From NCBI GenBank assembly GCA_016177735.1, contig JACOUS010000024.1, forward strand, positions 1 through 35,473: 35,473 bases of DNA, given 5' to 3'. This document shows positions 4,284-24,366 of this stretch, piece after piece; position 1 is the stretch's first letter, and each line of letters begins with the position of its first letter. The notes beneath the pieces are model-generated. The model did no database searches. It was not told the origin of the DNA and saw only the letters and a list, made by a program, of their open reading frames with translations. Source of the DNA: Ignavibacteriales bacterium. GTDB lineage: Bacteria; Bacteroidota; Ignavibacteria; Ignavibacteriales; Melioribacteraceae. A program made the translations under genes and the position numbers.

Positions 4284-4399
4284 AATGCCTCCTCAACTTT
4301 ATTTTTTGAAAATCTGGTTGTAAAGTTTTACGAAGTTGTCTTGAAAGTAATTTTTTTATTGCATAGCCATCACCATGTGAAAAAGTAGAACGCCGATAA

Positions 4400-4418
4400 C
4401 CCGCCAACAAGCGGCGGG
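4400..4418. repeat. GC-rich hairpin between fucA and fucI
   Basis: CCCGCC and GGCGGG flank a seven-base loop in an otherwise A+T-rich 208-bp gap. In the transcribed (minus) direction it follows the aldolase stop by about 70 bases and is not followed by a clear T-run. It may attenuate or protect mRNA between the two genes, or be a dispersed palindrome. Confidence 0.45.
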
Positions 4419-4491
4419 CAAGCTCTGATTAAGCATATTTTCGCGGATTTTTTTATATAACTATTTTCGAGACTACCTCTTCAAAAATTTT

Positions 4492-5187
4492 TCAGGATTT
4501 TTTTCTTTTGGATTTTCTCACCGGCTTCAAACCGATATCCTTCCTGATTCCGAATTTTTCACGCAGATCAATCAATTGATCTGTCTGTTGTTTTGTAAGT
4601 GTGTTCACTTTGCCGAGCATCTGCGCAATAAATTGAATCATCGCCGCAAGATCGAGTGTTTCCATTTTGTGATATGCATTCAGAATACTGTTACCAACTG
4701 TAAGTGCGCCGTGATTTGCAAGCAGAAAAGCATCGTAATCTTTTATGTATTTCGAAATCATTCCGTAAAGTTCGTGCGTACCGGTTGTGCCGTATTCAAC
4801 TACCGGCACGGTTCCGAGTGCAATGATTACTTCGGGCAGAACCATTTTATCGAGCGGAATTCCGGCGACTGCAAATCCGGTTGCGTACGGCGGATGTGCA
4901 TGGCAAACACTCATCACATCGGGTCTGTCTTTGTAAATTTGCAAATGCATGTTTGCTTCGGATGACTGCTTCTTTTTTCCGCTAAAAACTTTTCCGTTCA
5001 GATCAAGAATTATCAAATCATCAACGGACATGAATCCTTTGCTAACGCCGGTCGGTGTGATTAAAATTCTATCGCCATCCAACCGTGCACTTATATTGCC
5101 GTCATTCGATGCAACGTATCCTCTTGCGTAAACTCTTCTGCCGACTTCAACGATTTCTTTTTTCAATGAATTTATATTCTGCTTCAA
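4492..5187 (-). CDS. fucA: Class II aldolase, probable L-fuculose-1-phosphate aldolase
   Basis: Cleaves L-fuculose-1-phosphate to dihydroxyacetone phosphate and L-lactaldehyde. The class II aldolase/adducin fold is clear: SNDGNISARL (27-36), E77 as general acid/base (SSEANMH), and zinc ligands H96 and H98 (CHAHPPYATG) and H159 (LLANHGALT). The start is TTG at 5187, two bases after the kinase stop, with AGGAG eight bases ahead, so the two genes are translationally linked. At 231 residues it is longer than E. coli FucA (about 215). The extra part is a C-terminal helix-like stretch (TKQQTDQLIDLREKFGI) and a very basic tail (KPVRKSKRKKS). A rhamnulose-1-phosphate role is possible from sequence alone; the neighbouring fucI favours fuculose-phosphate. 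Confidence 0.88.
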   Translation of the reverse strand: MKQNINSLKKEIVEVGRRVYARGYVASNDGNISARLDGDRILITPTGVSKGFMSVDDLIILDLNGKVFSGKKKQSSEANMHLQIYKDRPDVMSVCHAHPPYATGFAVAGIPLDKMVLPEVIIALGTVPVVEYGTTGTHELYGMISKYIKDYDAFLLANHGALTVGNSILNAYHKMETLDLAAMIQFIAQMLGKVNTLTKQQTDQLIDLREKFGIRKDIGLKPVRKSKRKKS

Positions 5188-5189
5188 TT

Positions 5190-6683
5190 TTATTTCTCCT
5201 TTTGTTTTAAAATTCTCTCGTATTTTTTTCCACTACTAACGAAGTAGCTTGTGTTAACCGGTTTATAAATTTTTGTGTTGAACGAAGCGCCGATAATTTT
5301 TCTCCATGATTTAAGATTCGGAACAACTCCGGCGGCAATTGCTTGAATACCAACGTTACCGGCGGCTGTTCCTTCTACCGGTCCGGCAATTACGGTTACG
5401 CCGCACGCATCCGCAGTGTACTGCATCAATAATTCATTTTGAGTTCCGCCGCCGACAACATGCAAAAATTCAATTTCCTTGCCGGTGATTTCTTCAATCT
5501 CTTTCAATGTTTTCCGGTAAGTAAATGCGAGGCTTTCAAATATTACTCCGGCGATAAATCCAATTTTATCTTTAACCGGTTGATTAGTTTCATACAAATA
5601 TGTTTTAATCTTTTCCGGCATGTTACCCGGTTTCAAAAATCTTTGATCGTTCAAATCTACCCAAGCACTCACATGATTTTCTTCGCGTGCCTTTTCCGCA
5701 ATCTGTACGTAATCAAAATCATTTCCGTTGTTTTGCCAGTAACGTTTGCACTCTTGGAGAGTCCACAGCCCGATTATGTTTTTCAGAAATCGTATCATGC
5801 CTTCTGCACCACCTTCGTTTGTAAAATTATATTCAAGCGATTGAGAATTGATCAGCGGCTCTTGCAATTCGATTCCCATTAACGACCACGTGCCCGAACT
5901 TAAAAATGCCCAATTACTTTCTTGCACCGGAATTGATGCAACAGCAGATGCGGTATCGTGCCCGGCAGATGCAAAAATTGGAATGTTCGAATCGAGCCCG
6001 GTTTTTTCTGCAAGATGCGGAAGCAATGTTCCGAGATTTGTACCGGGTTCAATCATTTCTGGAAAAATATTTTTCGGAAGCCCGAACGCATCAATTAATT
6101 CCCACGACCAGTTTCTCGTGTTTGGATCGGCAAGATTCGTAGTTGATGCAATTGTGTATTCGGCTTTCATTTTGCCGCAAAGCATGTAGTTAAAAAAATC
6201 CGGCATCATCAAAAATTTATCCGCGGCATCCAGCAAATTCAGTTTTCTTTTCTTCTCGGATAATAATTGAAACAATGTGTTGTACTGTGCAAACTGAATT
6301 CCGGTTTGTCTGTAAATTTTTTCTTTCGGAACAATTTTAAATGCTTCAACCATCATTCCGTCTGTGCGGTCGTCTCGGTAATGGTACGGATACCCGATAA
6401 TTCTTCCATCAGCATCGAGCAAAACATAGTCAACGCCCCACGTATCAACTGCAATTCCATCAAAATGTGAACCGAAATTTTTTTGAGCTTTTGATAATCC
6501 TTCCACTATTTCATTGAAAATTGCAAGCACATCCCAGTGAAATCCGTTTTCATATTTCACGTTACACGTGGTGAATCGGTGAACTTCATGCAAAGTAATT
6601 TTTTGATCATGCAAAAGAGCGGCAACACATCGCCCACTCTCAGCGCCAAGATCAATTGCAATAAACTGCTTTTTACTTTTCAT
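5190..6683 (-). CDS. FGGY sugar kinase of the rhamnulokinase type, probable L-fuculokinase here
   Basis: Phosphorylates a deoxyketose with ATP. The 497-residue protein has the two actin-like FGGY domains: DLGAESGR (11-18, phosphate loop), DTWGVDYVLLD (80-90), YRDDRTDGM (102-110), GIQFAQYNTLFQL (128-140), the catalytic base D243 in GHDTASAVAS, SSGTWSLMG (262-270), and the second-domain VVGGGTQNELL and GPVEGTAAGN motifs. These are the signatures of RhaB rather than of E. coli FucK. It nevertheless sits between fucI/fucA and no rhamnose isomerase is in the window, so the likely substrate is L-fuculose; rhamnulose cannot be excluded. Its 5' flank is a 359-bp block of repeats. The ribosome-binding site is weak (AGAAG). 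Confidence 0.88.
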   Translation of the reverse strand: MKSKKQFIAIDLGAESGRCVAALLHDQKITLHEVHRFTTCNVKYENGFHWDVLAIFNEIVEGLSKAQKNFGSHFDGIAVDTWGVDYVLLDADGRIIGYPYHYRDDRTDGMMVEAFKIVPKEKIYRQTGIQFAQYNTLFQLLSEKKRKLNLLDAADKFLMMPDFFNYMLCGKMKAEYTIASTTNLADPNTRNWSWELIDAFGLPKNIFPEMIEPGTNLGTLLPHLAEKTGLDSNIPIFASAGHDTASAVASIPVQESNWAFLSSGTWSLMGIELQEPLINSQSLEYNFTNEGGAEGMIRFLKNIIGLWTLQECKRYWQNNGNDFDYVQIAEKAREENHVSAWVDLNDQRFLKPGNMPEKIKTYLYETNQPVKDKIGFIAGVIFESLAFTYRKTLKEIEEITGKEIEFLHVVGGGTQNELLMQYTADACGVTVIAGPVEGTAAGNVGIQAIAAGVVPNLKSWRKIIGASFNTKIYKPVNTSYFVSSGKKYERILKQKEK

Positions 6684-7042
6684 CTATTCTTCTTGATACT
6701 TGATATTTCAACTGCGTACTACTAAGAAGATTCTGGATGCTCGATGCTGGATAATAATTGATTGAATCGATTCGTCAATTTTCAAATTCATAAATCGTAA
6801 CTCGTAAATCCAAAATCCATGCTTTAAATTCGTACTTCGTAAATCGTACTTCGTACTTTTTTCGTTCCTCGTACCTCGTCTTTCGTACTTTATCTTGTGC
6901 TTCCCAAATCATAATTCATAAATCCAAAATCTTACTTCGTACCTCATACCTCGTCTTTCGTACTTTATCGTGTTTTCCCAAATCGTAATTCATAAATCCA
7001 AAATCTTACTTCGTTCCTCGTACCTCGTCTTTCGTACTTTTC
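6684..7042. repeat. Repeat-filled intergenic region with about 2.4 tandem copies of a 75-bp unit
   Basis: Units start at 6861, 6936 and 7010, spaced 75 and 74 bp. Each begins TTCGT(T/A)CCTC and passes through CTCGTCTTTCGTACTTT and AATTCATAAATCCAAAATCT; the third copy stops at the 3' end of the neighbouring gene. The two full copies differ at only a few positions. Upstream, about 6785-6860, are shorter degenerate versions of the same wording (CGTAAATCGTACTTCGTAC), and 6729-6748 has TGGATGCTCGATGCTGGAT. No gene is visible. The promoter of the fucose genes must lie within or across this repeat block; I cannot place it. Confidence 0.8.
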
Positions 7043-9388
7043 CTATTCCGTCATCTTCTTCAATTCCATCGACTTGGTGTAAAATTCTTCGAGCGTTAAT
7101 TCTTTTAGATAAACCATTCCGTGCGCGGCTCTCACACGCGGCACCGGATGATTTAAGAAAAAGTCTTTGCCAAGACACCATCTTACAGTTTGATATTGAT
7201 CGACATGAACCTTTTGCGCCAAACGCGAGAACGGTCCGTCGTATTCGTAACTTGGAAAGCTTGCATCTTTCTGCGAGCCGTAACTGTTCATAAAAATGCT
7301 GTCGAGAATTGCGAACGAATTCAAACTAACCGGCACAAATAAATTTGCTTCTGCCGGATGGAACCGGTACCAAACATTTCTGTATCCCCAGATTTTCAGG
7401 TTGGAGAGATCGGCTTCTTTTTCATACAAACGAAGTGCTTCGGTAATTGCTTGCAAAACTTTATAATGCGTATCGGGTCCGCTTCCTTCGGGATCGAGTG
7501 CAACAGTAATGATTGACGGTTTTATTTTTCTAAGCAGATTCAATATCGGCAGAACATCACGGTTGATTTCAGGATTCTCCGTAAAAATTTCTCCTTGATA
7601 AAAACCGAGACGCAAGTGGGAAACGCTTTCACCGGTGAAACCGAAATAAGCCCACACAATTTCTTCTTCCCATTCGCGCAGCATTCCTTTTAATTTCTGA
7701 ACATGTGGAACATCTTTTTTGCCGGGGTATTGTGTTTTGAAATAGTTGATCAACTCATCGACTCTTGAAATCAAATAAGAAAGATTATCTTCTTCATAAA
7801 TCTCGGTTATGTTCCTCAATAAGCGGCGCGCAGATGCTTCTCTTTTTAGTGTCTTGCTGTTTGCCGCTAATCCATCGAGATACATATTTACGTCTTTATC
7901 TTTTTCATCTTTGAAAGCCGCGGCAAAATATTTATCGGTAAAACGCTCTTTAAAATCTTCTTTGTGCAAATGTTCTTTTAAGCTTTCGAGCAGATTGAGC
8001 ATGTGTGAATTTGTAACCGCAGTAAAACCGCTTGTCAGCGTAGTGAAATGATGTTTGTTCGAAGCGTTGCGCACAAGGTGAACAATGTACGGCAAGTAAC
8101 CGAGCATAATATCATCGTGGTGCGGCGCAGTGTGCAGAATTGTTTCATCCTCTTTGCCGGCAATTCCTTTGTTAAATTTTTGCAGTGTCGTTTCATAAAT
8201 AAATTTGTTAATTGAAGAAACTGATTTACCGGTTCTTTGCAAAATAAGTTTTCCAAATTTGTCAGAATTATAATCTTCCTCCGTTAAACTGGTTACTTCT
8301 TTTTGTTTATCTACTGCAAGATTTATAACCGCTCTTTCAATTGAAAAATCCGAAAGGTCTTCTTCTTTAAGCATATCATCATAACGGCGTTCTTTTAATC
8401 TGAGTGCGGCACCGTTTGTTAAATAGAAACGCGCATTCTTTAAATTCTGCAGTACTGTTGCCGGATATTTATTTGTAACCGGGTTCTCGATCGAATCGCG
8501 CACAATATTTGCTTTTGCTTCGCCGGCAGCAATGATGATTGTTGCAGCATCTTTATTATATGTAATCGTATCGAGACCAATTGTTATTACAAGTCTATTG
8601 CGCGCAATTTCAATTCCTCCCAAATCGGTAGAAGCCGCGGCTTGTGTTTCATAATTTGTTGCAATCAACCGCGTTGTAGAAAAGTGATCGCTTCCCTGAA
8701 TATTGAAACCGATGTGTCCATCGGGACCAATACCGCCGAGGAAAAACCCGATACCGCCGAGTTCTCTGATTTTCTTCTCATAGTTTGTGCAGTACTCATC
8801 AACAATTTCGAGTGTTCTTTTTTGCAATCGTTCTAAACGCGTACTTGGGTATCTAACACGCAGACTCAAATCAACAACTTTATCCGGAAAAATTTGATCG
8901 AGCGGAAGATCTTCTGCCGTTCCAATTTCGTTTACATTTATCAACAATGCTTTCTTCGGATCGAGTCCCAAATTGTGCATGTAATATTTCTGGATGTAGT
9001 AATAAAAACTATTGTGCTGGAAAGAATCGATTGGATAGAATTCGTCAATCTGAACAAAGTGAAGACTTTTCATATCGGGTTTAATTGAAACATCGATGCC
9101 AACTGATTCCAATTCATCAATTACATTCTGCTTATTCCAATTTTTCAAATAGTGACCGGTTCTTTTAATAAAATGTTCGGGCGTTTTTCCGGTAGGCAAA
9201 GAAATTACTCCGCCGGGATTATGCTGTACCCATTCGACAAATCTCAGCGCTGTTAATTTTCCCAGTTCCGGAAAATTCTGCACCTGAATAATCGGCATCT
9301 TTTCCGTGGGAGGATAAATCAATTCTTTATTTGATCGGTTAAGATAATGTTGTTCAACTGGCGTTAAGCTAAAACTATCCGTTTCCAT
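7043..9388 (-). CDS. NagB-like sugar-phosphate deaminase/isomerase fused to a PIG-L (LmbE-like) domain
   Basis: 781-residue two-domain protein. Residues about 30-335 are NagB-like (glucosamine-6-phosphate deaminase/isomerase fold): LPTGKTPEHF (64-73), IDEFYP with D115, and GGIGPDGHIGFN with D223 and H225. The glutamate that follows this motif in E. coli NagB (E148, GHIAFNEP) is Ile230 here, so deaminase chemistry is uncertain. Residues about 415-780 are a PIG-L/LmbE-like, zinc-dependent N-deacetylase domain with HTAPHHDDIMLGY (H423, D425, D426) and DPEGSGPDTHYKVLQA. Similar fusions, usually named glucosamine-6-phosphate deaminase-like, occur in Bacteroidota. A combined deacetylase-deaminase acting on N-acetylated amino sugars is attractive but inferred. 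ATG at 9388 has GGAG five bases ahead; long gaps on both sides suggest its own promoter. Confidence 0.85.
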   Translation of the reverse strand: METDSFSLTPVEQHYLNRSNKELIYPPTEKMPIIQVQNFPELGKLTALRFVEWVQHNPGGVISLPTGKTPEHFIKRTGHYLKNWNKQNVIDELESVGIDVSIKPDMKSLHFVQIDEFYPIDSFQHNSFYYYIQKYYMHNLGLDPKKALLINVNEIGTAEDLPLDQIFPDKVVDLSLRVRYPSTRLERLQKRTLEIVDEYCTNYEKKIRELGGIGFFLGGIGPDGHIGFNIQGSDHFSTTRLIATNYETQAAASTDLGGIEIARNRLVITIGLDTITYNKDAATIIIAAGEAKANIVRDSIENPVTNKYPATVLQNLKNARFYLTNGAALRLKERRYDDMLKEEDLSDFSIERAVINLAVDKQKEVTSLTEEDYNSDKFGKLILQRTGKSVSSINKFIYETTLQKFNKGIAGKEDETILHTAPHHDDIMLGYLPYIVHLVRNASNKHHFTTLTSGFTAVTNSHMLNLLESLKEHLHKEDFKERFTDKYFAAAFKDEKDKDVNMYLDGLAANSKTLKREASARRLLRNITEIYEEDNLSYLISRVDELINYFKTQYPGKKDVPHVQKLKGMLREWEEEIVWAYFGFTGESVSHLRLGFYQGEIFTENPEINRDVLPILNLLRKIKPSIITVALDPEGSGPDTHYKVLQAITEALRLYEKEADLSNLKIWGYRNVWYRFHPAEANLFVPVSLNSFAILDSIFMNSYGSQKDASFPSYEYDGPFSRLAQKVHVDQYQTVRWCLGKDFFLNHPVPRVRAAHGMVYLKELTLEEFYTKSMELKKMTE

Positions 9389-10908: not shown

Positions 10909-13900
10909 TTATTTGATTAACACCATTTTTCTAATCTGTAATTCTGAGGAGTCCCGATAAAATCGGGGCGACGAAGAATCTCCTACTCTTAACGTGTAAA
11001 AATATATGCCGGATGGTAGAGACGCGCCATGGCGCATCGCTACATTAAAATGTACAGAATATTTCCCCGGCGCTTGTTGTTCATTCACAAGCGTTGCAAT
11101 TTCTCTTCCAAGTATGTCGTACACTTTTAATGTAACATGTTGTAGAGACGGGATATATCCCGTCTCTACGTTGGGAATTGTGTATTCAATTGTTGTTGAC
11201 GGATTGAACGGATTCGGATAATTCTGTTCGAGAGAAAATCCTACCGGGATTTCATATTTATCTTCTTCAATTGATGTTTGAATATCATTTAGTTCTGCGA
11301 TTGTTAAAGGCAGTAACATGTAATCGTAGATTCTTAAATCATCGAGAACACCTTTGAAATTGTAATTCGCATCTGTTGGAAGCATCTGCGCAATTGTTAA
11401 ATCAACATCAGATGAAAGCAATTTACCCGACCATGATACAAACGAATCAAGCTCACCGTTGAGCCAAACTTCGGCATCAGTTCCATTATATGTTACCACG
11501 CAATGATAGAGTTTACCGGCATCAAGAATAGATTCGCTGTCGAGATCTAAAATTCCGCTGCCGGTTTTATTGGTTTTGATTGTCCATCTCAATTTTCTAT
11601 TCGTGATTGAAACTTTATATCTCTTATTCCAGCTTCCATGAGAAATGACATAAACTTCTTTGCTTGGAATTTGGTCGAGCGTCATCCAAAAAGAAATTGT
11701 AATTGCATTCTGAAAATTAAGCGATGAAGAATTGCTAACCTGAATTTTATCATCAACTCCGTCAAAACGCAGAGCGCGCGATGATTTGTTGAACCTATCG
11801 TTTGTAAAAACTGCGCCGGTAATAGTACCGTTGTTTCCGCTGCCGCTTTCATCGTTAGCATTTCCGTTGAACGGATAAAATGCAGTAAGATTGCCGCTTG
11901 TATATTTGCTGAAATCACGAACCATTAATTTGATGCTGTCCGCTGTTTCAGCGTCATGAATATCTTTAACGACAATTCTTACAACGTAATCACCTTCTTG
12001 CATCGGTGCTTGCCAAACAACTGAGTCGGCTGATACTTGTGTGATTGTACCAAATTCCGTTTGCCACAAAAAAGTAAGATTGTCATTATCGGCATCAACT
12101 GCACTGCAAAAAATTTTCGTTGATTCGCCAACATTAATTTTTCCCGGCTTCGCTTTAATAAAATTTATTTGCGGTGAATGATTTATGAACTCTACAATAT
12201 TAACATCAACAACGGCAGAATCTTTTTCCCCTTTTGAATCCTCAACAATAACTTCAATACTTGCAGTACCGGTATTGTTTTCTGCATGAAAATCTATCAC
12301 TGTGTTTTCACCTGAAAATTGTCCTTTTGTAGTTCGCCAAAAATATTTTAGAACATCGTTATCATTATCAACTGCAGTACAATAAATTTTTGTCGTTCCG
12401 TTTTGTGCCAAAGTAGCTGAACCGGCTGACAGACTTTTAATTCTCGGCGGATAATTTGCAACAGTTCTGCCGCAATCGTAATCAACAACAATTCCGTCCA
12501 CTAATAATTGCTTGAATTTATACACAACATTTCCGCCGGAAGGAATCAAAACAACGACAGCAGAAGAGGCAGCCGGAATTGTAATGCTGGCTTCTCCCGA
12601 AACATTATTTACTATAAATTTATTCGTGGTTGATTCATAAATATCAAACGAGCCTTCGAGTAAATTAATACCAGCAATTTTTTCTGTGTCGTACGGATTA
12701 AAAAGTAGAAAAGTGGTATAAGATTTTTTCTGGAAGAAATCTGTTTTGTTCAAGTCTAGTTTTAAAATCATCGGAATGTTGGTTGTATCGAGCAGACCGG
12801 CAAGATAACCAACCGACGAAGAAGTGTACAAAGATAAATTTGTCTGCGCCCATCCGCCGCTTTTTGCATCGCCGGTTGCAAATGGAAATCCCGTACCGGA
12901 TTTCAACAATGCTTCATATGCAATGTATGAATTGGGATCATACTGATACGACCAATTCTCACTGTCCTGATGAAAATCATCGAGATATTTCGAATAAAAT
13001 AACCGCAGCGAATTTGCCGCGTTCAAAACCCATTTGCCGATTGCATTTGCAAATCGTTCATCGTAACGAACAAGCGGAACGAGCGCACCAATTTGTTGAA
13101 ATGTGTTCATCGCAAATGCATATTGGCGGTCAAAGTCTTCGCCGATCAAACCGTTAATATCATAAACTCCCCATCTGCCGAGCAGTGCATTCCACTTGCG
13201 CAGATTTGTAAAACTAAAACACCAGTTCAACATTTTGCCGATATCATAATTTGTTCCTATCTCTGCATTCATCCGTGCAGCAGTGAAAACTCCGTATGGA
13301 AGTTGAATTTCATAAGCGGGGTTCGTTGTCAAAGAATTTAAATATTCGAAACACCATTCGGCACCGACCAAATATTTTTTCTCACCGGTTTCGATGTAGG
13401 CATTGTAAAGAATCCATCCAACTGCCCCGGCGGCTTCCGGTTCTTCAACATCAAGTTCGTACGGCACTTTGTTAATAAAGTCCCATCCGCGATAGGAAAA
13501 ATTACTTTCCTTCCACGGTGTAGTTGAGCCGCCGTTCAATTCGGCAGTTTCAAGAAAGCGGTCGGCAACTAAACGAAATTGGAAATCGTAATCTTCAACA
13601 TCCGGATATAATGAATACAACTGGTAGAAAAAAAGATTCGGCATCGATTCGTACCACCAATCATCAAACGAATTATCATTGGGCGAATTTTTATACACAT
13701 TCATTTCCGGGCGTTTGTTGAAATATTCTCTACTCATCTTCACCCAATCATATCCGTTCTGATTTCTTTTGTCAATTCCTACTAACGATGCGCCCACTAT
13801 TGATGGAAGCACATTTATCGCTTCGCCGTTGTTTGGCGAATTCGTACCAACATAAGAATGCAAACCAAAACTTTGCTCATCCGCATAATTAATCGTACTG

Positions 13901-14118
13901 TTATTAAAAAATATTAACGGAAGAAAATCTCCTTGCATGTTGAAATTATATACCAGCGAATCATAACCTTTTGCAATTGTTTTCCAATCACGCATAATGT
14001 ACGGTGAAGGAATATTCGGCATCTGGTCAATACGTGCAATATTAATTTGCTGAGCGGATAAATCAAAAAAACTAAAAATGAGTACTCCTATATAAAGTAT
14101 CCTCAGTAACTTTTTCAT
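10909..14118 (-). CDS. T9SS-exported multidomain protein: (alpha/alpha)-barrel-like enzyme, two PKD-like domains, LamG-like domain, sorting domain
   Basis: Start placed at ATG 14118, where the signal peptide begins (MKKLLRILYIGVLIFSFFDLSAQ); an upstream ATG at 14139 would overlap the mannosidase gene. Using this start (1069 residues), about 25-450 is helical and Trp/Tyr-rich, like (alpha/alpha) toroid enzymes of glycan breakdown, followed by a beta domain (TTFLLFNPYDTEKIAG). Two PKD/Ig-like repeats (about 555-745, each with a CxAVDxDND motif) follow. Then come a concanavalin/LamG-like domain (about 755-940, LTAFYPFNGNANDESG and LRFDGVDD) and the T9SS sorting domain with EQNYPNPFNP, ending KMVLIK. 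The likely role is surface-bound binding and cleavage of the locus glycan. I do not recognise the enzyme family. Three palindromic repeats are inserted in the sorting domain. Confidence 0.85.
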   Translation of the reverse strand: MKKLLRILYIGVLIFSFFDLSAQQINIARIDQMPNIPSPYIMRDWKTIAKGYDSLVYNFNMQGDFLPLIFFNNSTINYADEQSFGLHSYVGTNSPNNGEAINVLPSIVGASLVGIDKRNQNGYDWVKMSREYFNKRPEMNVYKNSPNDNSFDDWWYESMPNLFFYQLYSLYPDVEDYDFQFRLVADRFLETAELNGGSTTPWKESNFSYRGWDFINKVPYELDVEEPEAAGAVGWILYNAYIETGEKKYLVGAEWCFEYLNSLTTNPAYEIQLPYGVFTAARMNAEIGTNYDIGKMLNWCFSFTNLRKWNALLGRWGVYDINGLIGEDFDRQYAFAMNTFQQIGALVPLVRYDERFANAIGKWVLNAANSLRLFYSKYLDDFHQDSENWSYQYDPNSYIAYEALLKSGTGFPFATGDAKSGGWAQTNLSLYTSSSVGYLAGLLDTTNIPMILKLDLNKTDFFQKKSYTTFLLFNPYDTEKIAGINLLEGSFDIYESTTNKFIVNNVSGEASITIPAASSAVVVLIPSGGNVVYKFKQLLVDGIVVDYDCGRTVANYPPRIKSLSAGSATLAQNGTTKIYCTAVDNDNDVLKYFWRTTKGQFSGENTVIDFHAENNTGTASIEVIVEDSKGEKDSAVVDVNIVEFINHSPQINFIKAKPGKINVGESTKIFCSAVDADNDNLTFLWQTEFGTITQVSADSVVWQAPMQEGDYVVRIVVKDIHDAETADSIKLMVRDFSKYTSGNLTAFYPFNGNANDESGSGNNGTITGAVFTNDRFNKSSRALRFDGVDDKIQVSNSSSLNFQNAITISFWMTLDQIPSKEVYVISHGSWNKRYKVSITNRKLRWTIKTNKTGSGILDLDSESILDAGKLYHCVVTYNGTDAEVWLNGELDSFVSWSGKLLSSDVDLTIAQMLPTDANYNFKGVLDDLRIYDYMLLPLTIAELNDIQTSIEEDKYEIPVGFSLEQNYPNPFNPSTTIEYTIPNVETGYIPSLQHVTLKVYDILGREIATLVNEQQAPGKYSVHFNVAMRHGASLPSGIYFYTLRVGDSSSPRFYRDSSELQIRKMVLIK
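10935..10983. repeat. Palindromic repeat C inside the T9SS sorting-domain coding sequence
   Basis: CCCGAT (10953-10958) and ATCGGG (10962-10967) form the core, flanked by TCTGAGGAGT and GCGACGAAGAATCT wording that I associate with dispersed repeats in Ignavibacteria-like genomes. It is translated in frame as a polar insert (about DSSSPRFYRDSSELQI) before the final KMVLIK. Confidence 0.65.
11016..11043. repeat. 28-bp palindromic repeat A inside coding sequence (GTAGAGACGCGCC type)
   Basis: A nearly perfect 28-bp palindrome centred on CCATGG, beginning GTAGAGACGCGCC. Translated in the gene's frame it gives VAMRHGASLP, a stretch foreign to the sorting domain, between HFN and SGIYFYTLRVG. It shares its ends (GTAGAGAC and GTCTCTAC, with two base differences at one end) and its exact length with the second copy at 11142-11169. 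Confidence 0.8.
11142..11169. repeat. 28-bp palindromic repeat B inside coding sequence (GTAGAGACGGG type)
   Basis: GTAGAGACGGG (11142-11152) and CCCGTCTCTAC (11159-11169) form a perfect 11-bp inverted repeat around ATATAT. In the gene's frame it encodes VETGYIPSLQ, inserted between the TIPN and HVTLKVYD strands of the sorting domain. Same ends and length as the element at 11016-11043 but a different centre. Confidence 0.85.
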
Positions 14119-14129
14119 TATGCCTACTT

Positions 14130-16568
14130 TCATTTGCATAGAAATTCATTCAATGAATAGATTTCAATATCGTTCATCTTGAGTTTTTTATTTTTCACGG
14201 ATTTGATTTTCAATTCACATTTTTCGCCGGGCAGAATAATCATTCCCCTATCGGAAAAATCTGCAGAGGAAGAAATTATATCAACAAAGAATGCCGGCTT
14301 ATCGGTTGTTATTTGCGCAAACTGATTTCCGTCTTTTTTCGATAAACCCATTTTAATTTTTGCTTTGGGAAGTTTGAGATGTTTCCACTCTTTGAAACAG
14401 AAATAATTTCTTGCAGTCAAATTTCTTTCTGCATCGTACAGTGATGCAACACAAATAGAATTCGTATTGAACTGCTCATCAATTGAAACAAGATTTGAAA
14501 TCGAGCCGGGAGAAAGATTTACTGCATATTTCTTTTTGAATGATGTTTTGCCGGATGCGGATTTGACAACAATGAATTCAAGCTTGCCCGAAAAATTTCT
14601 TTCTGATTGATTGAGTCCTTCAATTTCAATCCCGCTATTATTTTTTTTGATCCTGATTGACTGCGGTGCAAAAGAATTTTTGACAAAGTGATAAGATAAT
14701 TTCGGCTGCAATTCGCTGTCGATCAAAGCCCAGCTTGTAACGGGCCACGTATCGTTAATCTGCCAAATGATTGTACCGTTCGTTACCGGCTGATTGAAAC
14801 GCCAGTGTTCGAGACATGTTTTGAGCGCAAAACCTTGATTCAATTGTGCGAGATAAATGTAATCATTCCACTTTGTGTTGAGCGGAAGATGTGCACTTAA
14901 GAACCTCGTTACTCTTTCGGGTCCTTCCACTTGTTTGTTGTGGAATTCAAAAATCTCTCCGTGAATTTTTCTTTCTTCTTTCGGAATATATTTTTCAAAA
15001 GTAGATTTGTTTGCCGGTCCCTGAAAACCGAATTCCGTAACGAACAAACTGTTATCATTTACAACTTCGGTGTAATCGATCCAACGGCTCCAAATATTCC
15101 ATTGATGACGGTTGCCGCTTGTTTCTGAATTCGGATCCTCATCGAAGCCAAACGGCGATGACTCCCAATACGGGCGGTGCGGATCAATTTCTTTTAGCAA
15201 CGCCGGAATAACCTCGCTGTAAATTTTATAACCGGGCATCAGCTTGTAACTTGTTTTCTGTTCTTGGTGCCAAATCCATTCGTTCTCATTATTGCCGCAC
15301 CAAATTGCAATCGAGGGATGATGTTGAAGCCGTTTTACGTTGTACAAAATTTCTTCTTTCACATTTTCGATAAACTCTTCATGTTCGGGATATGCGCCGC
15401 ACGCAAACATGAAATCGTGCCACACAAGCAGCCCGGCTTGATCACACAGTTCATAAAAAATATCGTTCTCGTAAATTCCTCCGCCCCACACGCGGATAAA
15501 ATTCATGTTTGCTTCTTTTGCATAATTTATGAGTGTGCGGTATTTATCATCAGCTACTCTTGTTAAAAATGCATCGCCCGGAATCCAGTTTACTCCTTTT
15601 GCAAAAATATTTTTGCCGTTGACGATAAACCGAAATGTGCGTTCCCCATTCTCTTCAAGCTGCAATTCAATTTTTCTGATACCGATTTTTTTCTTGATTG
15701 AATCAATTTCATTGTTAAACTCATCTTTCAATTTTATTTCTACATCGTACTGATTTTGTTCTCCGTATCCGTTCGGCATCCAGAGCAAAGGATTTTTTAT
15801 TTCCAATCTGATTTTATTTGTACCGGAGTTAATTTCTATATTTTTTTTCGGAAGAGAATTAAAATTGATTTCTGCGTTTAACTTTTCATTGAAATTGTTT
15901 GCAACATCGAAACGGATTTCTACTTCAGCCAAATCATTATTAACACTAACCGTATCAAAACAAAATTTTTCGATGGATGCTTTCTTAACTTTTTCAAGAT
16001 AAACATTCCGCCATATTCCGATTGTAGGAAACGACGGACCCCAATCCCAGCCGAATGAGTATTGAGCTTTTCTGATATGCACGCGATACGAATTCAATGC
16101 AACCGGAAGCTTGCCGCGTTTTTTTTCTTCTTCAATACCATAATTAACCGGCGATTCAAAGTGTATTTCCAGTTCATTTCTTTTTTCCTTCAAAAATTTT
16201 GCAACATCATATTCATATTTCATGAACATATTTTTTGAATTACCGATCATAACATTGTTGAGATATATTTTAGCAATTGTGTCGAGCCCTTCAAAAATTA
16301 TTTTTACGGCTGAGTCATTTCTTTCAAACGGCATATCAAAAACAGTTTTGTAAATCCAATCCGATTCAGCAATCCAACCGAGTTTAAGTTCGTTGTTCGA
16401 GTAGAACGGATCATCGATCAATTTATTTTTAAGAAGATCGGTATGAACGGTACCCGGTACTTCTGCGTCAATCCATTTCTTTTTTCTAATCTCCTTTGGA
16501 ATTGACGAAGAAAATTTTTCTCCGATTTTTAATTTCCACTTTCCGTTGATATAAAATTTTTCAGACAT
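14130..16568 (-). CDS. GH2 beta-mannosidase, cytoplasmic
   Basis: Removes non-reducing beta-D-mannose from short oligosaccharides. Start placed at ATG 16568 (MSEKFYINGKWKLKI, 812 residues), where homologous sequence begins; an upstream ATG at 16637 would overlap the preceding gene by 44 bp. Domains: N-terminal sugar-binding jelly roll with VPGTVHTDLL and FEGLDTIAKIYLN, then SFGWDWGPSFPTIGIWR typical of beta-mannosidases, a beta-sandwich, and the TIM barrel. By the GH2 pattern the acid/base is E428 (WCGNNENEW) and the nucleophile E512 (FVTEFGFQG). No signal peptide is present, so substrates must be imported, fitting the ABC importer and two GH130 enzymes in the same operon. It ends 11 bp before the T9SS protein gene. 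Confidence 0.93.
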   Translation of the reverse strand: MSEKFYINGKWKLKIGEKFSSSIPKEIRKKKWIDAEVPGTVHTDLLKNKLIDDPFYSNNELKLGWIAESDWIYKTVFDMPFERNDSAVKIIFEGLDTIAKIYLNNVMIGNSKNMFMKYEYDVAKFLKEKRNELEIHFESPVNYGIEEEKKRGKLPVALNSYRVHIRKAQYSFGWDWGPSFPTIGIWRNVYLEKVKKASIEKFCFDTVSVNNDLAEVEIRFDVANNFNEKLNAEINFNSLPKKNIEINSGTNKIRLEIKNPLLWMPNGYGEQNQYDVEIKLKDEFNNEIDSIKKKIGIRKIELQLEENGERTFRFIVNGKNIFAKGVNWIPGDAFLTRVADDKYRTLINYAKEANMNFIRVWGGGIYENDIFYELCDQAGLLVWHDFMFACGAYPEHEEFIENVKEEILYNVKRLQHHPSIAIWCGNNENEWIWHQEQKTSYKLMPGYKIYSEVIPALLKEIDPHRPYWESSPFGFDEDPNSETSGNRHQWNIWSRWIDYTEVVNDNSLFVTEFGFQGPANKSTFEKYIPKEERKIHGEIFEFHNKQVEGPERVTRFLSAHLPLNTKWNDYIYLAQLNQGFALKTCLEHWRFNQPVTNGTIIWQINDTWPVTSWALIDSELQPKLSYHFVKNSFAPQSIRIKKNNSGIEIEGLNQSERNFSGKLEFIVVKSASGKTSFKKKYAVNLSPGSISNLVSIDEQFNTNSICVASLYDAERNLTARNYFCFKEWKHLKLPKAKIKMGLSKKDGNQFAQITTDKPAFFVDIISSSADFSDRGMIILPGEKCELKIKSVKNKKLKMNDIEIYSLNEFLCK

Positions 16569-16593
16569 ATCTCTTAATGTTTCTCCTCCCATT

Positions 16594-19083
16594 TCAAAAT
16601 TTAATTTCCAGTAAATCGATTTTGTTTTCATGCGCAAAGTTTATTGTTACGGAATAACCGCCGTCAATTTTTTCGATGACCGCATCGTTATAATTTGCTC
16701 TGTTGTGCAAAATGATTTTGGGTTCACTCTTCACATGAATAACTGTTTTGTTCTGATGATTCTTAAATGCTTCTATCTCTATTTTCATCGTGTTGAGTCT
16801 GCTATCATAAAAACATGATTTCAAAATTGAATTTGTCGTTTTCAAAACCGGTTCGTTCAATCTACCGGCGTGCAATTGAATATTTTTCGCGGCGGCGTTT
16901 TCATCCGGCAGCACAAATGAATTAATTTTCACTCCGTCAATTTCTGTCCTCTGGTTTGCGTTCTTTTCTATTCGCACATTAACCAATTTATTTTTTACTG
17001 TGAGATCAAAAGAACAATTCTTTTCTCCTTCAATCAGATAAGGATCAAACTCGATATTCCATTCATTGTTGTTCAATCCGAACAAATAATAGAGCGAATA
17101 AAGATACCATCCCGCCGACCACATAAATTGCGGCTTATCGATTGTACCGTAAACTTTTGCATCGTTAAAATTTCCGTTCCGCACTTCGTACATAGCCGGT
17201 TGTCCGTTCGGTCCGTTCATAATTCCGTCAACAGTCATAACATTTTTAATGAACTCGGCAGCATTTTCTTTTTTGCCGTCTGCAATTAATGCAAGCGAAT
17301 ACCAAGCATTTGAATGCGACCATATTCCGCCGTTGAGATAATAAAATTTTCCGCCGGCTTCGTTATTTACCAGATGCCAATAATCCTGAAGTTCATCAAA
17401 ATCCATCGGGTAAACAGTGTACACGCCGGCTTTCTCATCAACAATTTTTTCCTCTGCCGTATTAATCATTTTTGAAATTTTTTCTTGTTCGAGTAATCCG
17501 TAATGAGCCGCAAGAAGAGAACCACTGTAAAAATGTTCATCAATTACATCCGGGTCGGAATAATTCATCAAGTAACCGAATTTATCAAACCACAATTTTT
17601 CGTTCAGATTTTTCTGCATCCGTTCAGATAACTTTTCAAGTTCATTTAAATATTTTTCGTCTTTATCGAGAACGGACGAGAAGTAGAGGAAAGATCGGAT
17701 AGCTTTAATCGCAAGAGTTGTCATGTAACTTCGCTGCCCAAATCTTTTTCCGATATCCCACCAATCGGGACGGTACGACCACATTAAATCATCATCGCCT
17801 TTTGTCTTCAATGCTTGCGTCAAAGATTTTTCAACGAACGGATAAATCTCTTTCGAAAAATTTTCATCGCCGGAATGTTTTAGATACTCCGCAGACACAA
17901 TGATGAACCAGAAATTATTCCAGTTATCATGACCGGCAAACTCGGTTACAAACAAAGAGTCTTTCCAGTAATAGGCATGAGGAATAATTTTATCTTTGTC
18001 CGCATGTTTAACAATAAAGTCGAGATCGTTTTTAACTCTTTCAAGATCGAAATTAACTGCGGCGAGATCAGTAAGCAGAACATCGTGTGTAAAATAAAAA
18101 TTGTATTCTGCCGGGCACGGCATCGGCACAATTGTCCCGTCAATAAAATGTTTATTCACTTCAAGAATTGCTTTTGACCAAAGAACTGTGCGGTCAAACT
18201 CTTTTATGCCGGTTGTAAATGTTGAACCCGCGCCGATTTTATCTAAAATCGTTTGTTCAAATTCTTCAACTTCTTTCTCGTAATTATTTTTTAAGTAGCC
18301 GGCAGTTTCATTTTTTTCACTTTGTCTGCATGTACCGATAATTTGAGTGACAATAAGTTTTTCACCTGGTGCTAATTTTTTCCGATAAACAAAATTCGCA
18401 AGAGGTATGCCGGGATTTTTCTTCGAAGTATAATTACAACTATACGGTTCTTCTTTCCCATTTACGATAAACAATACAGTGTTCTGCGTTTTATTGTCGT
18501 TATGATTTGCAAAAAAAATTCCGCCGTTATTCAAAACTTCATCGTTGATGTTACTGCTTTGCTTGTAAGTGTGACTCGTACGAAACGCCAAAGGATGTTC
18601 CGTGTGAAGCTCAACTTGTTCGGTGCGATTTGTTTTGTTGGCAATCGAATAACTAACTACAAATGCCGGTTTGTTTTTGGTAAATGAGTATGAAAGCTCA
18701 ATTGTCTTTTCGCTATCCTCCCTAAAAAAATCAACAGCGAAAGGAGTGAGATCAAATTCATACTGCTTTGTATTCAACCATTCAATTTCAGCATCACCAA
18801 ATTTAACGCCGGCATTCATTGCAAATGTTGTATCGCGCCGCCAATAATCGGTGCTTAAGTCGATGCTGTTTGCAGCCGGGTAGTAAAAACTAAAACGCTG
18901 CGGCAGCGGATGGCTGTGATGGAATTCAATTCCGGCATAGTAACTGCCAACTTCAATTTGCGCATCGCCGTTGTAACGGATTATCAAATTCTTTCTTGCG
19001 GCAGAGCTGGAATTTGCAGACAACGATCCGCCGTAAAAATTCAAAGCGAGCAATAAAAAAATCGCAGCAAATTTTGTTTTCAT
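16594..19083 (-). CDS. Secreted (alpha/alpha)6-barrel glycosidase-like protein
   Basis: 829 residues with a cleavable signal peptide (MKTKFAAIFLLLALNFYGG), so periplasmic or exported; there is no T9SS sorting tail. The first 270 residues look like a beta-sandwich. The middle is a helical toroid with FTHDVLLTDLAAV, HDNWNNFWFIIVSAEY, RPDWWDIGKRFGQRSYMTTLA, GGIWSHSNAWYSLAL and KPQFMWSAGWYLYSLYYLF. The last group recalls GH94-, GH63- and debranching-type (alpha/alpha)6 enzymes, but I cannot assign a family or point to certain catalytic acids. A short beta domain closes it. It lies eight bp after the larger GH130 gene and upstream of the mannosidase, suggesting a trimming step on the same glycan before import. 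Confidence 0.7.
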   Translation of the reverse strand: MKTKFAAIFLLLALNFYGGSLSANSSSAARKNLIIRYNGDAQIEVGSYYAGIEFHHSHPLPQRFSFYYPAANSIDLSTDYWRRDTTFAMNAGVKFGDAEIEWLNTKQYEFDLTPFAVDFFREDSEKTIELSYSFTKNKPAFVVSYSIANKTNRTEQVELHTEHPLAFRTSHTYKQSSNINDEVLNNGGIFFANHNDNKTQNTVLFIVNGKEEPYSCNYTSKKNPGIPLANFVYRKKLAPGEKLIVTQIIGTCRQSEKNETAGYLKNNYEKEVEEFEQTILDKIGAGSTFTTGIKEFDRTVLWSKAILEVNKHFIDGTIVPMPCPAEYNFYFTHDVLLTDLAAVNFDLERVKNDLDFIVKHADKDKIIPHAYYWKDSLFVTEFAGHDNWNNFWFIIVSAEYLKHSGDENFSKEIYPFVEKSLTQALKTKGDDDLMWSYRPDWWDIGKRFGQRSYMTTLAIKAIRSFLYFSSVLDKDEKYLNELEKLSERMQKNLNEKLWFDKFGYLMNYSDPDVIDEHFYSGSLLAAHYGLLEQEKISKMINTAEEKIVDEKAGVYTVYPMDFDELQDYWHLVNNEAGGKFYYLNGGIWSHSNAWYSLALIADGKKENAAEFIKNVMTVDGIMNGPNGQPAMYEVRNGNFNDAKVYGTIDKPQFMWSAGWYLYSLYYLFGLNNNEWNIEFDPYLIEGEKNCSFDLTVKNKLVNVRIEKNANQRTEIDGVKINSFVLPDENAAAKNIQLHAGRLNEPVLKTTNSILKSCFYDSRLNTMKIEIEAFKNHQNKTVIHVKSEPKIILHNRANYNDAVIEKIDGGYSVTINFAHENKIDLLEIKF

Positions 19084-19091
19084 CTTTTTAA

Positions 19092-20342
19092 TTACTTAAT
19101 CATTTTATCGAGTAATTCATTTAGACCAACCACCGCAAAACTGCTTGCGTAGTCAGACATCGCGTATGGAAAGACAACATCGCTTCCGTTTATTACTCCA
19201 CCGCAAGTGTAAACGACATTCGGCACGTAACCGTTGCGTTCATCTTCGTTTGATTCAAGCAGAGGCTCGCTCAATCTGCCGATTAATTTTGCCGGATCAT
19301 TTTTATCAAGCAAGAAAGCACCGATAGAATATTTTCTTGCTGCACCCACTCCGTGACTAAAACAGAGCCATCCTTTTTCCGTTTCAATCGGCGAGCCGCA
19401 GTTCCCGATCTGAAAAAATTCCCACGGATATTCCGGTTCCATCAATAGTTGTTTTGATTCCCATTTATACACGTCATCGGAGAACATGATGAAATTGTTC
19501 TCGTTGTCTTGCCGCGAAAGCATTACAAATTTTCCGTTAATCTTCCGGGGAAACAGTGCCATCCCTTTATTTTGAATTTCCGCGCCGCTCATTTTGCCGA
19601 TTGTGAAATTCAAAAAATCTTTAGTCTGCAAAAGTTGTGTGGAAATATTGTGACCGTCATACGCACAGTAGGTTGCATAATATGTCTCGGCATTTTTTTC
19701 ATCAACAAAGCGGACGAACCTCGCATCTTCAATTCCGTTTGATTCGGATGGCAATTGTGGAAAGAGTGTGCGTTCGGAGATTTCATCTTCGGGATTAAAC
19801 TTTGCTTCGTAAAGTTCATCGGCAAAAATTTTTATCTGCGGCATTTCGGCAAAGTGCGAAAAATTATCAAGCTCAATATTATTGTTGGAATCAATTGTAC
19901 CGCTTCTGAAAACGAGCGAAGAAATATGTCCCTCGCCGGTTGCGCGCAGACTTATTATAAAACGTTTTTTGTCCGCCGGAAGATTTGTTTGATCGGGATG
20001 CCACACCATCGAAGGATTGAACAACGCCGAATGTTCGAGCGAATATTCATTTGAGAAGTATGCACCTACTAACAGTTTCTTTTCATTCGAGATTTTTTCC
20101 AGACCTTCACGATATTTTTTTACTTCGTCGAATCTTTTTTGAAAAAATTGTTCCATTCTTTTGTGGCGCGGTGAAAAAAGTTTTTTTACTTGTTCATATT
20201 CTCGGCTCACTGAAGCGTCTGATAATTTCACTACCCGGTCAATGATTTTTTTTATTCTTGATTTATTCCCCGGTTCAAACGGTCTCATAATTACTTTTGT
20301 TTGATCGGGCTTAAGAATTATCCCGGTTCTTCTCACATTCAT
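19092..20342 (-). CDS. GH130 mannoside phosphorylase/hydrolase, longer form
   Basis: 416 residues, no signal peptide, five-bladed beta-propeller enzyme of family GH130, whose members phosphorolyse (some hydrolyse) beta-mannosides. Motifs: ISLRATGEGHISSLVFRSG (about 130-148), SNGIEDARFV with D206 matching the family's general acid, NKGMALFPRKINGKF, NCGSPIETEKGWLCFSHGVG and GYVPNVVYTCG. It has about 90 extra N-terminal residues, helical and charged, compared with the short GH130 at 21744-22646. GH130 enzymes of this longer type are less well characterised, so specificity (including hydrolysis instead of phosphorolysis) is open. A GGGGG ribosome-binding site precedes the ATG at 20342. Confidence 0.88.
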   Translation of the reverse strand: MNVRRTGIILKPDQTKVIMRPFEPGNKSRIKKIIDRVVKLSDASVSREYEQVKKLFSPRHKRMEQFFQKRFDEVKKYREGLEKISNEKKLLVGAYFSNEYSLEHSALFNPSMVWHPDQTNLPADKKRFIISLRATGEGHISSLVFRSGTIDSNNNIELDNFSHFAEMPQIKIFADELYEAKFNPEDEISERTLFPQLPSESNGIEDARFVRFVDEKNAETYYATYCAYDGHNISTQLLQTKDFLNFTIGKMSGAEIQNKGMALFPRKINGKFVMLSRQDNENNFIMFSDDVYKWESKQLLMEPEYPWEFFQIGNCGSPIETEKGWLCFSHGVGAARKYSIGAFLLDKNDPAKLIGRLSEPLLESNEDERNGYVPNVVYTCGGVINGSDVVFPYAMSDYASSFAVVGLNELLDKMIK

Positions 20343-20392
20343 TTTTATTAACCCCCTTTAATATCGGAATTTTGAATTGCACTTTGTGTAGA

Positions 20393-20433
20393 ACGAAGTC
20401 TGCCCGGCATCAGTCAGACGGGCGCCACTTCGT
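20393..20433. repeat. Imperfect palindrome between two operon genes
   Basis: ACGAAGT (20393-20399) and GCCCG (20402-20406) pair with CGGGC (20419-20423) and ACTTCGT (20427-20433). It fills much of the 97-bp gap between the secreted protein gene and the longer GH130 gene. It looks like a dispersed repeat with hairpin potential and could modulate downstream expression. Confidence 0.6.
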
Positions 20434-20439
20434 CAATTT

Positions 20440-21729: not shown

Positions 21730-21743
21730 TGTTTGTCTATTTT

Positions 21744-22646
21744 TTATTTACAAACAGAGAGCAAATAATCAATTGAAGTTTCAGCGAGACAAATGTTTGT
21801 ATCGGCACCCGAGTAATAAATTTTTACTCTGCCGTCCGGCTCGTCAATCCATCCGCACGAAAAGACAACATTCGGCACATCGCCAATTCTCTCGTAATCG
21901 AGTTCGGATGAAAGGATCGGTCCTTTCGTTCTACCTTTTACAATCCACGGTTTTTCGAGATCGAGCAGAACAACACCGAGTTTGTACAATGTAGAAATTC
22001 CAAATCCGCGTACACCATGGTAAAGCATCAGCCATCCTTCTTTTGTTTTTATCGGTGTGCTCGATGAACCGATTTTATCGTTCTCCCACGTTCCCGGCAA
22101 AGGTTCCATCACAACCTTGTTATTGCCCCAATGCAAAAGATCGGGACTGCTGTTGATCCAAATATCACGACGGCTTTCAGCAGACGGGCGGTCGATTCTC
22201 CAATAACTATTCTGAATCTTTTCGGGAAAGAGTGCACAGTCTTTGTTCGAAGGCTCGCTGATTGGTCCGTGTATTTTAAACGTGTTAAAATCTTTCGTCT
22301 CTGCAAGAATAACAAGCGGCATATATTTCGAGTAGCCTGTGTATGTAAGATAATAAGTGCCGCCAATTTGTGTTATTCGTGCGTCTTCAATTCCCCATTC
22401 AACATATTTATAAAATTCTTTATGACCTTCGGGAGTAAGTGTAGGTTTTGAATCAACTACAAATTTATATCCGTCACTTCCGGTTGCTTTAACCAATGAA
22501 GACCTTCCGTCAGGCATTTCAACACGGCACATCAACAAATATTTATTTTGAAATTTCACCGCGCCCGGATTAAAAATGCTGTTCACTTTAAATGGAACAT
22601 CTTCTTTTGTAATAATTGGATTCTTCGAGTACTTCACTATTTCCAT
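21744..22646 (-). CDS. GH130 beta-mannoside phosphorylase, short form
   Basis: 300-residue beta-propeller enzyme without signal peptide. It probably splits beta-1,4-mannosides with phosphate to give alpha-mannose-1-phosphate, saving ATP. Motifs in order: FNPGAVKFQNKYLLMCRVE (25-43), WGIEDARIT with general acid D88, NKDCALFPEKI (134-144), RIDRPSAESRRDIW (150-163), KIGSSSTPIKTKEGWLMLYHGV (191-212) and GDVPNVVFSCG. The Arg- and His-rich segments agree with a phosphate-binding site. The length matches the compact GH130 enzymes acting on mannosyl-N-acetylglucosamine or mannooligosaccharides. Which of these it uses is not decided by sequence. It starts 48 bp after the second permease, placing import and phosphorolysis next to each other. 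Confidence 0.92.
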   Translation of the reverse strand: MEIVKYSKNPIITKEDVPFKVNSIFNPGAVKFQNKYLLMCRVEMPDGRSSLVKATGSDGYKFVVDSKPTLTPEGHKEFYKYVEWGIEDARITQIGGTYYLTYTGYSKYMPLVILAETKDFNTFKIHGPISEPSNKDCALFPEKIQNSYWRIDRPSAESRRDIWINSSPDLLHWGNNKVVMEPLPGTWENDKIGSSSTPIKTKEGWLMLYHGVRGFGISTLYKLGVVLLDLEKPWIVKGRTKGPILSSELDYERIGDVPNVVFSCGWIDEPDGRVKIYYSGADTNICLAETSIDYLLSVCK

Positions 22647-22694
22647 GATTTGAGTACCTTCTGTTTAATTATAAAATCTATGTCGTTTATTATT

Positions 22695-24358: not shown

Positions 24359-24366
24359 CACTTTTC

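Follow-up and report, generated by a model that had tools for sequence, protein, structure and literature searches.

The closest described relatives of the DNA considered here are the double-foot REPs of subclass 2.4, which combine a GT[AG]G foot, a complementary C[TC]AC foot and a long hairpin with a flanking transposase gene, and in the tnpA_REP genes of that subclass frame-keeping REP insertions are found between HUH and Y, according to the sections of Quentin et al. (2018; PMC6006769) that treat them. The same sections place subclass 2.4 in Cyanobacteria, Bacteroidetes and various phyla, and equate the class with RAYT group 4 of Bertels et al. GTAG-tagged REPs, as presented in the main text of Di Nocera et al. 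(2013; PMC3733652), are RAYT-associated palindromes of 20-40 bp, some of which lie inside genes in several species. Nunvar et al. (2010; PMC2817692) also belongs to the REP literature considered here.

The C-terminal sorting domain (CTD) of T9SS cargo is a seven-stranded sandwich in which the strand 3-4 loop and the C-terminus are functionally important and the other loops are variable, and export of RgpB was undisturbed when loop 5-6 of its CTD received an 11-residue replacement (PMC11285876, in the passages on these points). In Porphyromonas the sorting domain is removed by cutting after export, as stated in the corresponding part of PMC4804311.

Here we analyze a stretch of 35,473 nucleotides from an Ignavibacteriales bacterium (contig JACOUS010000024.1), referred to below as the window. 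A preliminary description of it had proposed that three small palindromes, presumed to be mobile, are inserted in frame into one T9SS sorting domain, and this picture largely holds for the two elements of 28 bp.

Results

A secreted protein with inserts in its sorting domain

The gene that carries the inserts encodes a protein with Laminin_G_3 and Ig-like domains and a C-terminal T9SS sorting domain (Pfam/NCBIfam). The features used throughout are as follows, with the basis of each in brackets.

10909..14139, minus strand: 1076-aa secreted protein, carrier of the inserts (ORF list, translation, Pfam/NCBIfam)
10912..11223, minus strand: T9SS type A sorting domain (CTD), starting at NYPNPFNPST and running to the C-terminal end (TIGR04183 match at 10972-11220, residue mapping)
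11142..11169, no strand assigned: loop-A element, perfect 28-bp double-foot palindrome with core GGGATATATCCC, read VETGYIPSLQ (pattern and pairing)
11101..11118, minus strand: DILGRE turn, free of inserts, taken as the conserved strand 3-4 loop (spacing from the DxLG turn to the next conserved Gly)
11016..11043, no strand assigned: loop-B element, 28-bp palindrome with core GCGCCATGGCGC, read VAMRHGASLP (pattern and pairing)
10936..10983, minus strand: loop-C element, dispersed repeat GATTCTTC...CAGAATT that contains a short inverted repeat, read GDSSSPRFYRDSSELQ (genome matches, contexts, weak fold)

The window CTD passes the TIGR04183 cut-off of 23 bits with 29.4 bits in the genome search and 27 bits in hmmscan, and its score against Pfam PF18962 is 24.8 bits, below that model's cut-off of 27. 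A solved-structure search returned related domains, the best being 8glj at E 1e-4, and yielded no loop map; we equate loops A, B and C with loops 2-3, 5-6 and 6-7 on our own reading of the alignment. By eye, genes for sugar use and transport (isomerase, kinase, aldolase, glycosidases and transporter parts) surround the secreted-protein gene, at 2475-9388 and 14130-25656 of the window. An ORF at 424-1428 on the minus strand presumably encodes a tyrosine recombinase, with motifs that by eye look like those of integron integrases.

Two double-foot palindromes and a dispersed repeat

At up to three mismatches, the pattern GTAGAGAC-N12-GTCTCTAC matches only two 28-mers in the window (0.01 expected, and two matches in none of 100 shuffles), which share the ends that it defines. 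The loop-A element at 11142-11169, GTAGAGACGGGATATATCCCGTCTCTAC, forms 14 of 14 base pairs, and the loop-B element at 11016-11043, GTAGAGACGCGCCATGGCGCATCGCTAC, forms 12 of 14 with GTAG and CTAC both intact, so that the claim of two 28-bp palindromes with near-identical ends is borne out. The DNA fold of the less perfect of the two is modestly better than that of shuffles (z −1.62, with 11 of 200 as good). Both lie inside the ORF at 10909-14139 and, as the translation confirms, keep its frame while adding VETGYIPSLQ (11140-11169) and VAMRHGASLP (11014-11043), each stretch beginning with the codon GTA, and their placement between conserved strands of the sorting domain is likewise supported. 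It is also true that the two copies enter in the same reading frame. The TAG within GTAG, however, shuts one of the three frames on both strands, and hence only two frames per strand are ever open to a 28-bp element.

Each 28-mer has the GT[AG]G foot, the long stem and the complementary C[TC]AC foot of a double-foot REP. A GTAG that is unpaired at one end only, as in REPs of the Di Nocera type, was not found in them, since their GTAG pairs with CTAC. We therefore assign the two elements with high confidence to double-foot REPs of the TnpA_REP/RAYT subclass 2.4 kind.

The third element had also been described as palindromic, and here the description failed: 10935-10983 pairs at 6 of 24 positions over its length, its fold (z −0.96) is equaled by 30 of 200 shuffles, and the inverted repeat inside it is short (CCCGAT/ATCGGG). 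It is in frame within the sorting domain, as had been stated, and has nine matches in the genome including itself, three in loop C of sorting domains and six elsewhere. The element is a dispersed repeat and hardly a palindrome.

Spread and structure of the 28-bp family

Searches of the host genome and its relatives, which the preliminary description had suggested, found other copies in both, in and out of genes. The own genome contains 16 exact copies of GTAGAGAC-N12-GTCTCTAC and, at up to three mismatches, 52 matches compared with 11 for a reversed control, and at least one exact copy is present in 54 of 296 genomes of the phylum (own genome included), compared with one genome for the reversed pattern. 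Ends and length are constant and the 12-bp core varies, mostly in both arms. In the species collection the exact 28-mer of the window is found in 10 stretches, among them records of Ignavibacteriales, Melioribacter, two cyanobacteria, one Falkowbacteria and one Sulfurimonadaceae.

Two sets of copies are counted below. The 44 own-genome copies, drawn from stretches around whole-genome hits and around sorting domains, comprise the 43 of the 52 matches (at most three mismatches) that pass a pairing filter of 10/14 and one site with four mismatches. The 85 exact copies from elsewhere (other genomes and one plasmid) come from listed places and loci at hand and are a non-random sample, of which 13 are in RAYT-like ORFs, 8 in sorting domains, 5 within 900 bp of a RAYT and 59 in other places. 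Outside these two kinds of host, 26 of 29 copies in the own genome and 52 of 59 elsewhere have no open frame of at least 150 aa across the element. Exact 28-mers are also seen in long open frames that are neither RAYT-like nor sorting domains, at position 1501 of L158 (899 aa) and at position 1501 of L137 (327 aa).

Covariation between the arms was evaluated in 17 of 20 loop-B rows from the window and the sister species, the rows omitted being two of family ii and one that is degenerate. Pairing was seen in 92.0% of cells compared with 81.1% after shuffling, and the covariation score was 0.356 compared with 0.175, neither being reached in 500 shuffles, although the loose pairing filter by which the copies were picked (at least 8/14) somewhat favors covariation and relatedness alone can beat such shuffles. 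When the partner column was slid by 1 to 3 positions, 30-45% of cells were paired. Two measures were weaker, with pairs changed on both sides matched by 33 of 500 shuffles and pair types by 59 of 500.

Copies in and next to RAYT-like genes

Copies of the 28-bp family recur within or adjoining ORFs that bear the HUH motif of Y1 transposases, and RAYT transposase genes are, besides sorting domains, the other recurrent in-frame host found for the element. Two RAYT-like ORFs in the own genome (200 and 175 aa) have an in-frame internal copy together with flanking copies; the flanking core of the 175-aa gene is nearly identical to its inner core, whereas those of the 200-aa gene differ from the inner one. 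A third own in-frame copy (C32:19252) is in a RAYT fragment judged by eye. The NCBIfam model REP_Tyr_transpos matches the two own ORFs at E 4e-15 and 2e-14, the 56 and 54 bits being below the equivalog cut-off of 80, and it matches the five RAYT-like ORFs with internal elements that were scanned at E 1e-17 to 2e-14, all of them below its cut-off. The 200-aa ORF matches E. coli TnpA_REP (4ER8) at E 0.008.

In-frame copies between HUH and Y of a tnpA_REP gene thus account for 2 of the 44 own copies, plus the fragment recognized by eye, and for 13 of the 85 elsewhere. The latter are in RAYT-like ORFs that are open across the element, nine in one frame and four in the other, and include three ORFs that look damaged or cut: L170 stops three residues past the element, L159 diverges from the family downstream and L169 runs off the end of its stretch. 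A further copy outside the ORF, within 800 bp, accompanies the internal one in 6 of 12 RAYT-like ORFs (L018, L056, L146, L160, L170 and L171), some of the loci being incomplete. Where subclass 2.4 has the motifs NH[IFV]H, WQ and YIxNNP, L018 has PNHFH, WQ and YIEQNP, which match two of them and nearly the third. No RAYT bearing the exact core of the window, GGGATATATCCC, is present in the own-genome stretches that were read; RAYT-like ORFs with this core come from other genomes (L168-L171), and there the core also flanks RAYTs (L170 and L171).

Two other loop-B families have neighbors of the same type. The first, GCGCAGATT-N3-AATCTGCGC, has 24 own-genome sites compared with none for its control, 7 of them in sorting domains, and is found on both sides of one own-genome RAYT (98 bits, over the cut-off). 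The second, GGGCGAATC-N3-GATTCGCCC, has 8 own-genome sites, again with none for the control and with 4 in sorting domains, and lies about 300 bp upstream of an own-genome Y1 transposase. We have moderate confidence that RAYTs have a role in moving the 28-bp elements, for which movement itself is deduced.

PF01797 was rejected as a RAYT probe: it found four own Y1 genes and missed both that have internal palindromes (19.6 bits in one case and no match in the other), and the latter two were located from the palindrome positions instead. The loci returned by a PF01797 survey of 57 genomes were scanned by motif only and are kept out of the counts. All RAYTs with internal copies were found via the palindrome, so that no rate among RAYTs follows, and a plasmid search for RAYTs without an internal palindrome returned 3 and 4 records, which does not suffice to estimate a rate. 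A Spirosoma plasmid RAYT (L330) without a full internal palindrome has a perfect 28-bp palindrome directly after its end, at 1535-1562. At L175 (G000 C38) a Y1 transposase is flanked on both sides by the same two hairpins, CCACGAGCTAAAGCTCGTGG and CCACGATGTTTACATCGTGG, and has the look of a complete element.

Occupied loops in the sorting domains of two species

The own genome gave 108 TIGR04183 matches at E ≤0.1, of which 94 could be parsed into loops and 14 could not. In a sister species 74 of 79 domains were parsed; the set combines 30 top loci with 40 stretches selected mainly because they scored low, and is biased toward filled domains. Inserts are found in loop A after the TTIEYTIP strand, in loop B before SGIYFY and in loop C after YFYTLRV, and in the plain form of the domain these loops are short. 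At least one identified insert type is present in 35 of the 94 parsed CTDs of the own genome, with all three loops filled in five including that of the window, and in 31 of the 74 in the biased sample from the sister species, where 12 have three inserts; domains whose long loop C is of no recognized type (five own, one sister) are excluded from the 35 and the 31.

Loop A of the own genome contains the window element or a near variant in 11 CTDs (the window's included) and other inserts in 6. In loop B there are 8 inserts of family iii, 4 of family ii, 6 of the ARQGG type and one of the 28-bp family, that of the window, and in loop C 9 of the window's third element, 6 of the TCGCC type and 8 of the CAAGCTC type. 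The sister species has 16 copies of the 28-bp family in loop B, with 12 different cores, and mostly CCCCTCTC-type repeats in loop A, and in another genus one domain (L365) resembles that of the window in that its loops A and B contain 28-bp family members with two different cores. At least seven types of repeat-like insert are distributed over the three loops, and four types have been shown to be dispersed outside sorting domains. Whole-genome searches covered the 28-bp family, families ii and iii and the third element, and the ARQGG, TCGCC, CAAGCTC, CCCCTCTC and CGAGAC types are defined by their recurrence among sorting domains. In 74 of 78 pattern-parsed CTDs (16 of the 94 being unparsed by this pattern), the DxLG turn and the conserved Gly that follows it are spaced by 13, and no large insert in that segment was seen in the remaining 4 and the 16 unparsed rows when these were printed.

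Several variants were observed in passing. The sister CTDs L299, L308, L313 and L290 have a larger 28-bp element with a second stretch nested in the core and the frame kept, a different nested form is found in loop A of three own domains, and in L329 and L317 of the sister species runs of N in the assembly are at or within repeats of sorting domains. Copies of 28-29 bp are found shortly downstream of sorting-domain matches at G000 C15:133130, C16:135266, C31:26641 and C34:62265.

Enrichment of the palindromes in T9SS domains and a fixed reading frame were two further points that the preliminary description had put forward for checking. Sorting domains make up 23,547 bp, or 0.61%, of the own genome and contain 12 of the 44 own 28-bp copies (P 5e-17 if these are independent); the figure falls to 2 of 34 (P 0.018) if the 11 loop-A copies are counted once as a single insertion, and is 4 of 57 (P 4e-4) if the other two families are likewise collapsed. 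Elsewhere, 8 of the 85 exact copies have sorting-domain hosts. The frame is indeed fixed, with one frame in 12 of 12 copies in sorting domains of the own genome, in 16 of 16 loop-B copies of the sister species and in 8 of 8 from other genomes.

Orthologs and plain domains

The ortholog in the sister species (same genus, 69% identical) has inserts in the same three loops, all of which differ from those of the window gene: loop A contains another repeat, loop B a member of the 28-bp family with another core (GTAGAGACGTTGCATGCAACGTCTCTAC) and loop C yet another repeat. Five out-of-genus orthologs with a readable domain have none of these inserts, and a sixth (G322, L234) has no readable domain. 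The five are of a different domain subtype with a WDGKN-type loop B, and because of this they show that the inserts are not conserved, yet they do not represent exact empty sites; plain paralogs are the closer comparison. The proposed comparison with empty sites was thus realized in part, by insert-free orthologs of another subtype and by plain paralogs. A filled loop does not equal its plain counterpart with 28 bp added, the difference being 24 bp in loop A and 15 or 9 bp in loop B. Neither of the two outcomes named beforehand as speaking against the original idea turned up, as copies exist elsewhere in the genome and the residues are not conserved in the out-of-genus orthologs.

Discussion

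We propose, as the probable explanation, that the 28-mers of the window are double-foot REPs that are linked to RAYTs, held in frame in tolerated loops of the CTD and spread further by copying of the domain. The proposal builds on the dispersal and structure of the 28-bp family, its presence in and around RAYT genes, the in-frame occupancy of three loops, the differing occupants in the sister species and the insert-free domains. The 28-bp element is a hairpin with a GTAG foot and a complementary CTAC foot, of the kind associated with Y1/HUH transposases (TnpA_REP/RAYT, subclass 2.4), and its copies would be moved as single-stranded hairpins by a RAYT-type enzyme. Most copies lie outside long open frames, and two kinds of coding host repeatedly contain them in frame, the variable loop of the RAYT gene and the loops of T9SS sorting domains. 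The latter would be tolerant in that they are divergent beta-sandwiches that are cut off after export in type A cargo, such that a peptide in a loop would cost little, and selection would remove insertions that break the frame or that fall in a strand or in the essential 3-4 loop. Once in place, an element could spread to other genes with copying of the domain, and other repeat types, GTAG-tagged or not, occupy the same loops. The earlier idea of small mobile palindromes that use loops of secretion domains as tolerated targets survives in this form, as copies occur elsewhere and loops are filled in frame; the elements are not specific to sorting domains, and their mobility is read from their distribution.

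A more restricted role for insertion must be considered, in which a sorting domain received a single insertion or a few at an ancestral stage and the domain then spread among genes through duplication, exchange and gene conversion, and we regard this as quite possible, if a little short of probable. At the DNA level the seven best paralog matches are 82-89% identical along 117-141 bp that extend across the loop-A element, the 11 loop-A copies all occupy one position with an identical or slightly varied core, and the other domain subtype of the out-of-genus orthologs suggests that whole domains are exchanged, as may happen with the sorting domain in this genus to judge from these comparisons. 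However, the same loop-A element occurs with five loop-B states (ii28 in three domains, iii27 in three, ARQGG in one, i28 in one and none in three), and on a weak tree of 168 domains, based on 52 columns and read with no shuffled-label comparison, its 11 copies need at least six changes, which together speak against a single insertion followed by plain duplication. In addition, most members of the 28-bp family in the sister species sit in loop B, its loop A holding other repeats, and loop-A copies of other genomes carry other cores. Short-tract gene conversion could give the same picture as the varied loop-B states and the changes on the tree. Many copies may have spread by copying of the domain, and independent insertion is a possible main source of those in sorting domains.

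It is unlikely that position rather than the domain is decisive, with REPs settling near the 3′ ends of genes where sorting domains happen to be. REPs are reported to be mostly downstream of genes in the main text of Di Nocera et al. (PMC3733652), and four own copies are found shortly after sorting-domain matches, but three defined loops are filled while the spacing from strand 3 to strand 5 is kept, as is expected of tolerance and not of position alone. An origin of the palindromes on the spot by template switching at hairpins seems very improbable: such correction could maintain good pairing inside coding DNA, and could explain part of the covariation, but the same ends and the same 28-bp length in unrelated genes and genomes need a common source. 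Lastly, that the peptides are ordinary, selected parts of the domain in which palindromes are incidental would agree with the single frame of all 28-bp copies in CTDs and with the recurrence of inserts in related genes, but is scarcely credible in view of exact copies that lie outside sorting domains or belong to distant phyla, compensating changes in both arms, plain domains without inserts and several unlike peptides in one loop.

With RAYT-linked insertion into tolerated loops, together with domain copying, as the preferred reading, a wider one can be put forward tentatively. The T9SS sorting domain might be a recurrent harbor of mobile palindromic DNA, its three outer loops being slots that are filled and exchanged across lineages by at least seven repeat types, several of them dissimilar in sequence, so that the secretion signal would be continually rewritten by REP-like elements, and one family would have its own transposase gene and a secretion signal as its two in-frame homes. 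What makes the system attractive is that several repeat types gather in defined loops of a single domain family, that this is seen in two sister species, and that plain domains can serve as a reference. It amounts to a natural insertion scan of the T9SS signal, indicating where extra residues are tolerated, and makes it possible to test how REPs come to lie in coding DNA, whether through targeting, through the purging of bad hits or through domain copying.

Comparison with known systems

The small dispersed repeats of cyanobacteria that Elhai and colleagues are said to have described in 2008 are reportedly about 20-30 bp long and thought to be mobile. By that description they resemble the present elements in size, and the window 28-mer occurs in two cyanobacterial records. 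Rickettsia palindromic elements (RPE), as characterized in the main text of PMC3733652, are likewise palindromic repeats in frame within genes; their host is another one, and the label is not adopted here for elements with which RPE are compared by description only. What is already known therefore includes the double-foot REP kind, in-frame REPs in RAYT genes and REPs within scattered genes. The sorting domain as a REP host is what we could not find in print, our searches of the main texts in an open-licence library having turned up no report of REPs in T9SS sorting domains.

The REPs of Di Nocera et al. (PMC3733652) share with the present elements the GTAG tag, the palindrome, the association with RAYTs and the intragenic location. 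They differ in that their tag is unpaired at one end, whereas here both feet pair, and in that the gene targets stressed in the main text of that paper, in which the string GTAGAGAC is absent, are replication and repair genes. The double-foot REPs in the relevant sections of Quentin et al. (PMC6006769) are closer, as they have the same feet, the long hairpin, the flanking RAYT and the in-frame copy within the RAYT. In those sections the insertions are in a variety of unrelated genes, whereas here T9SS sorting domains are among the hosts.
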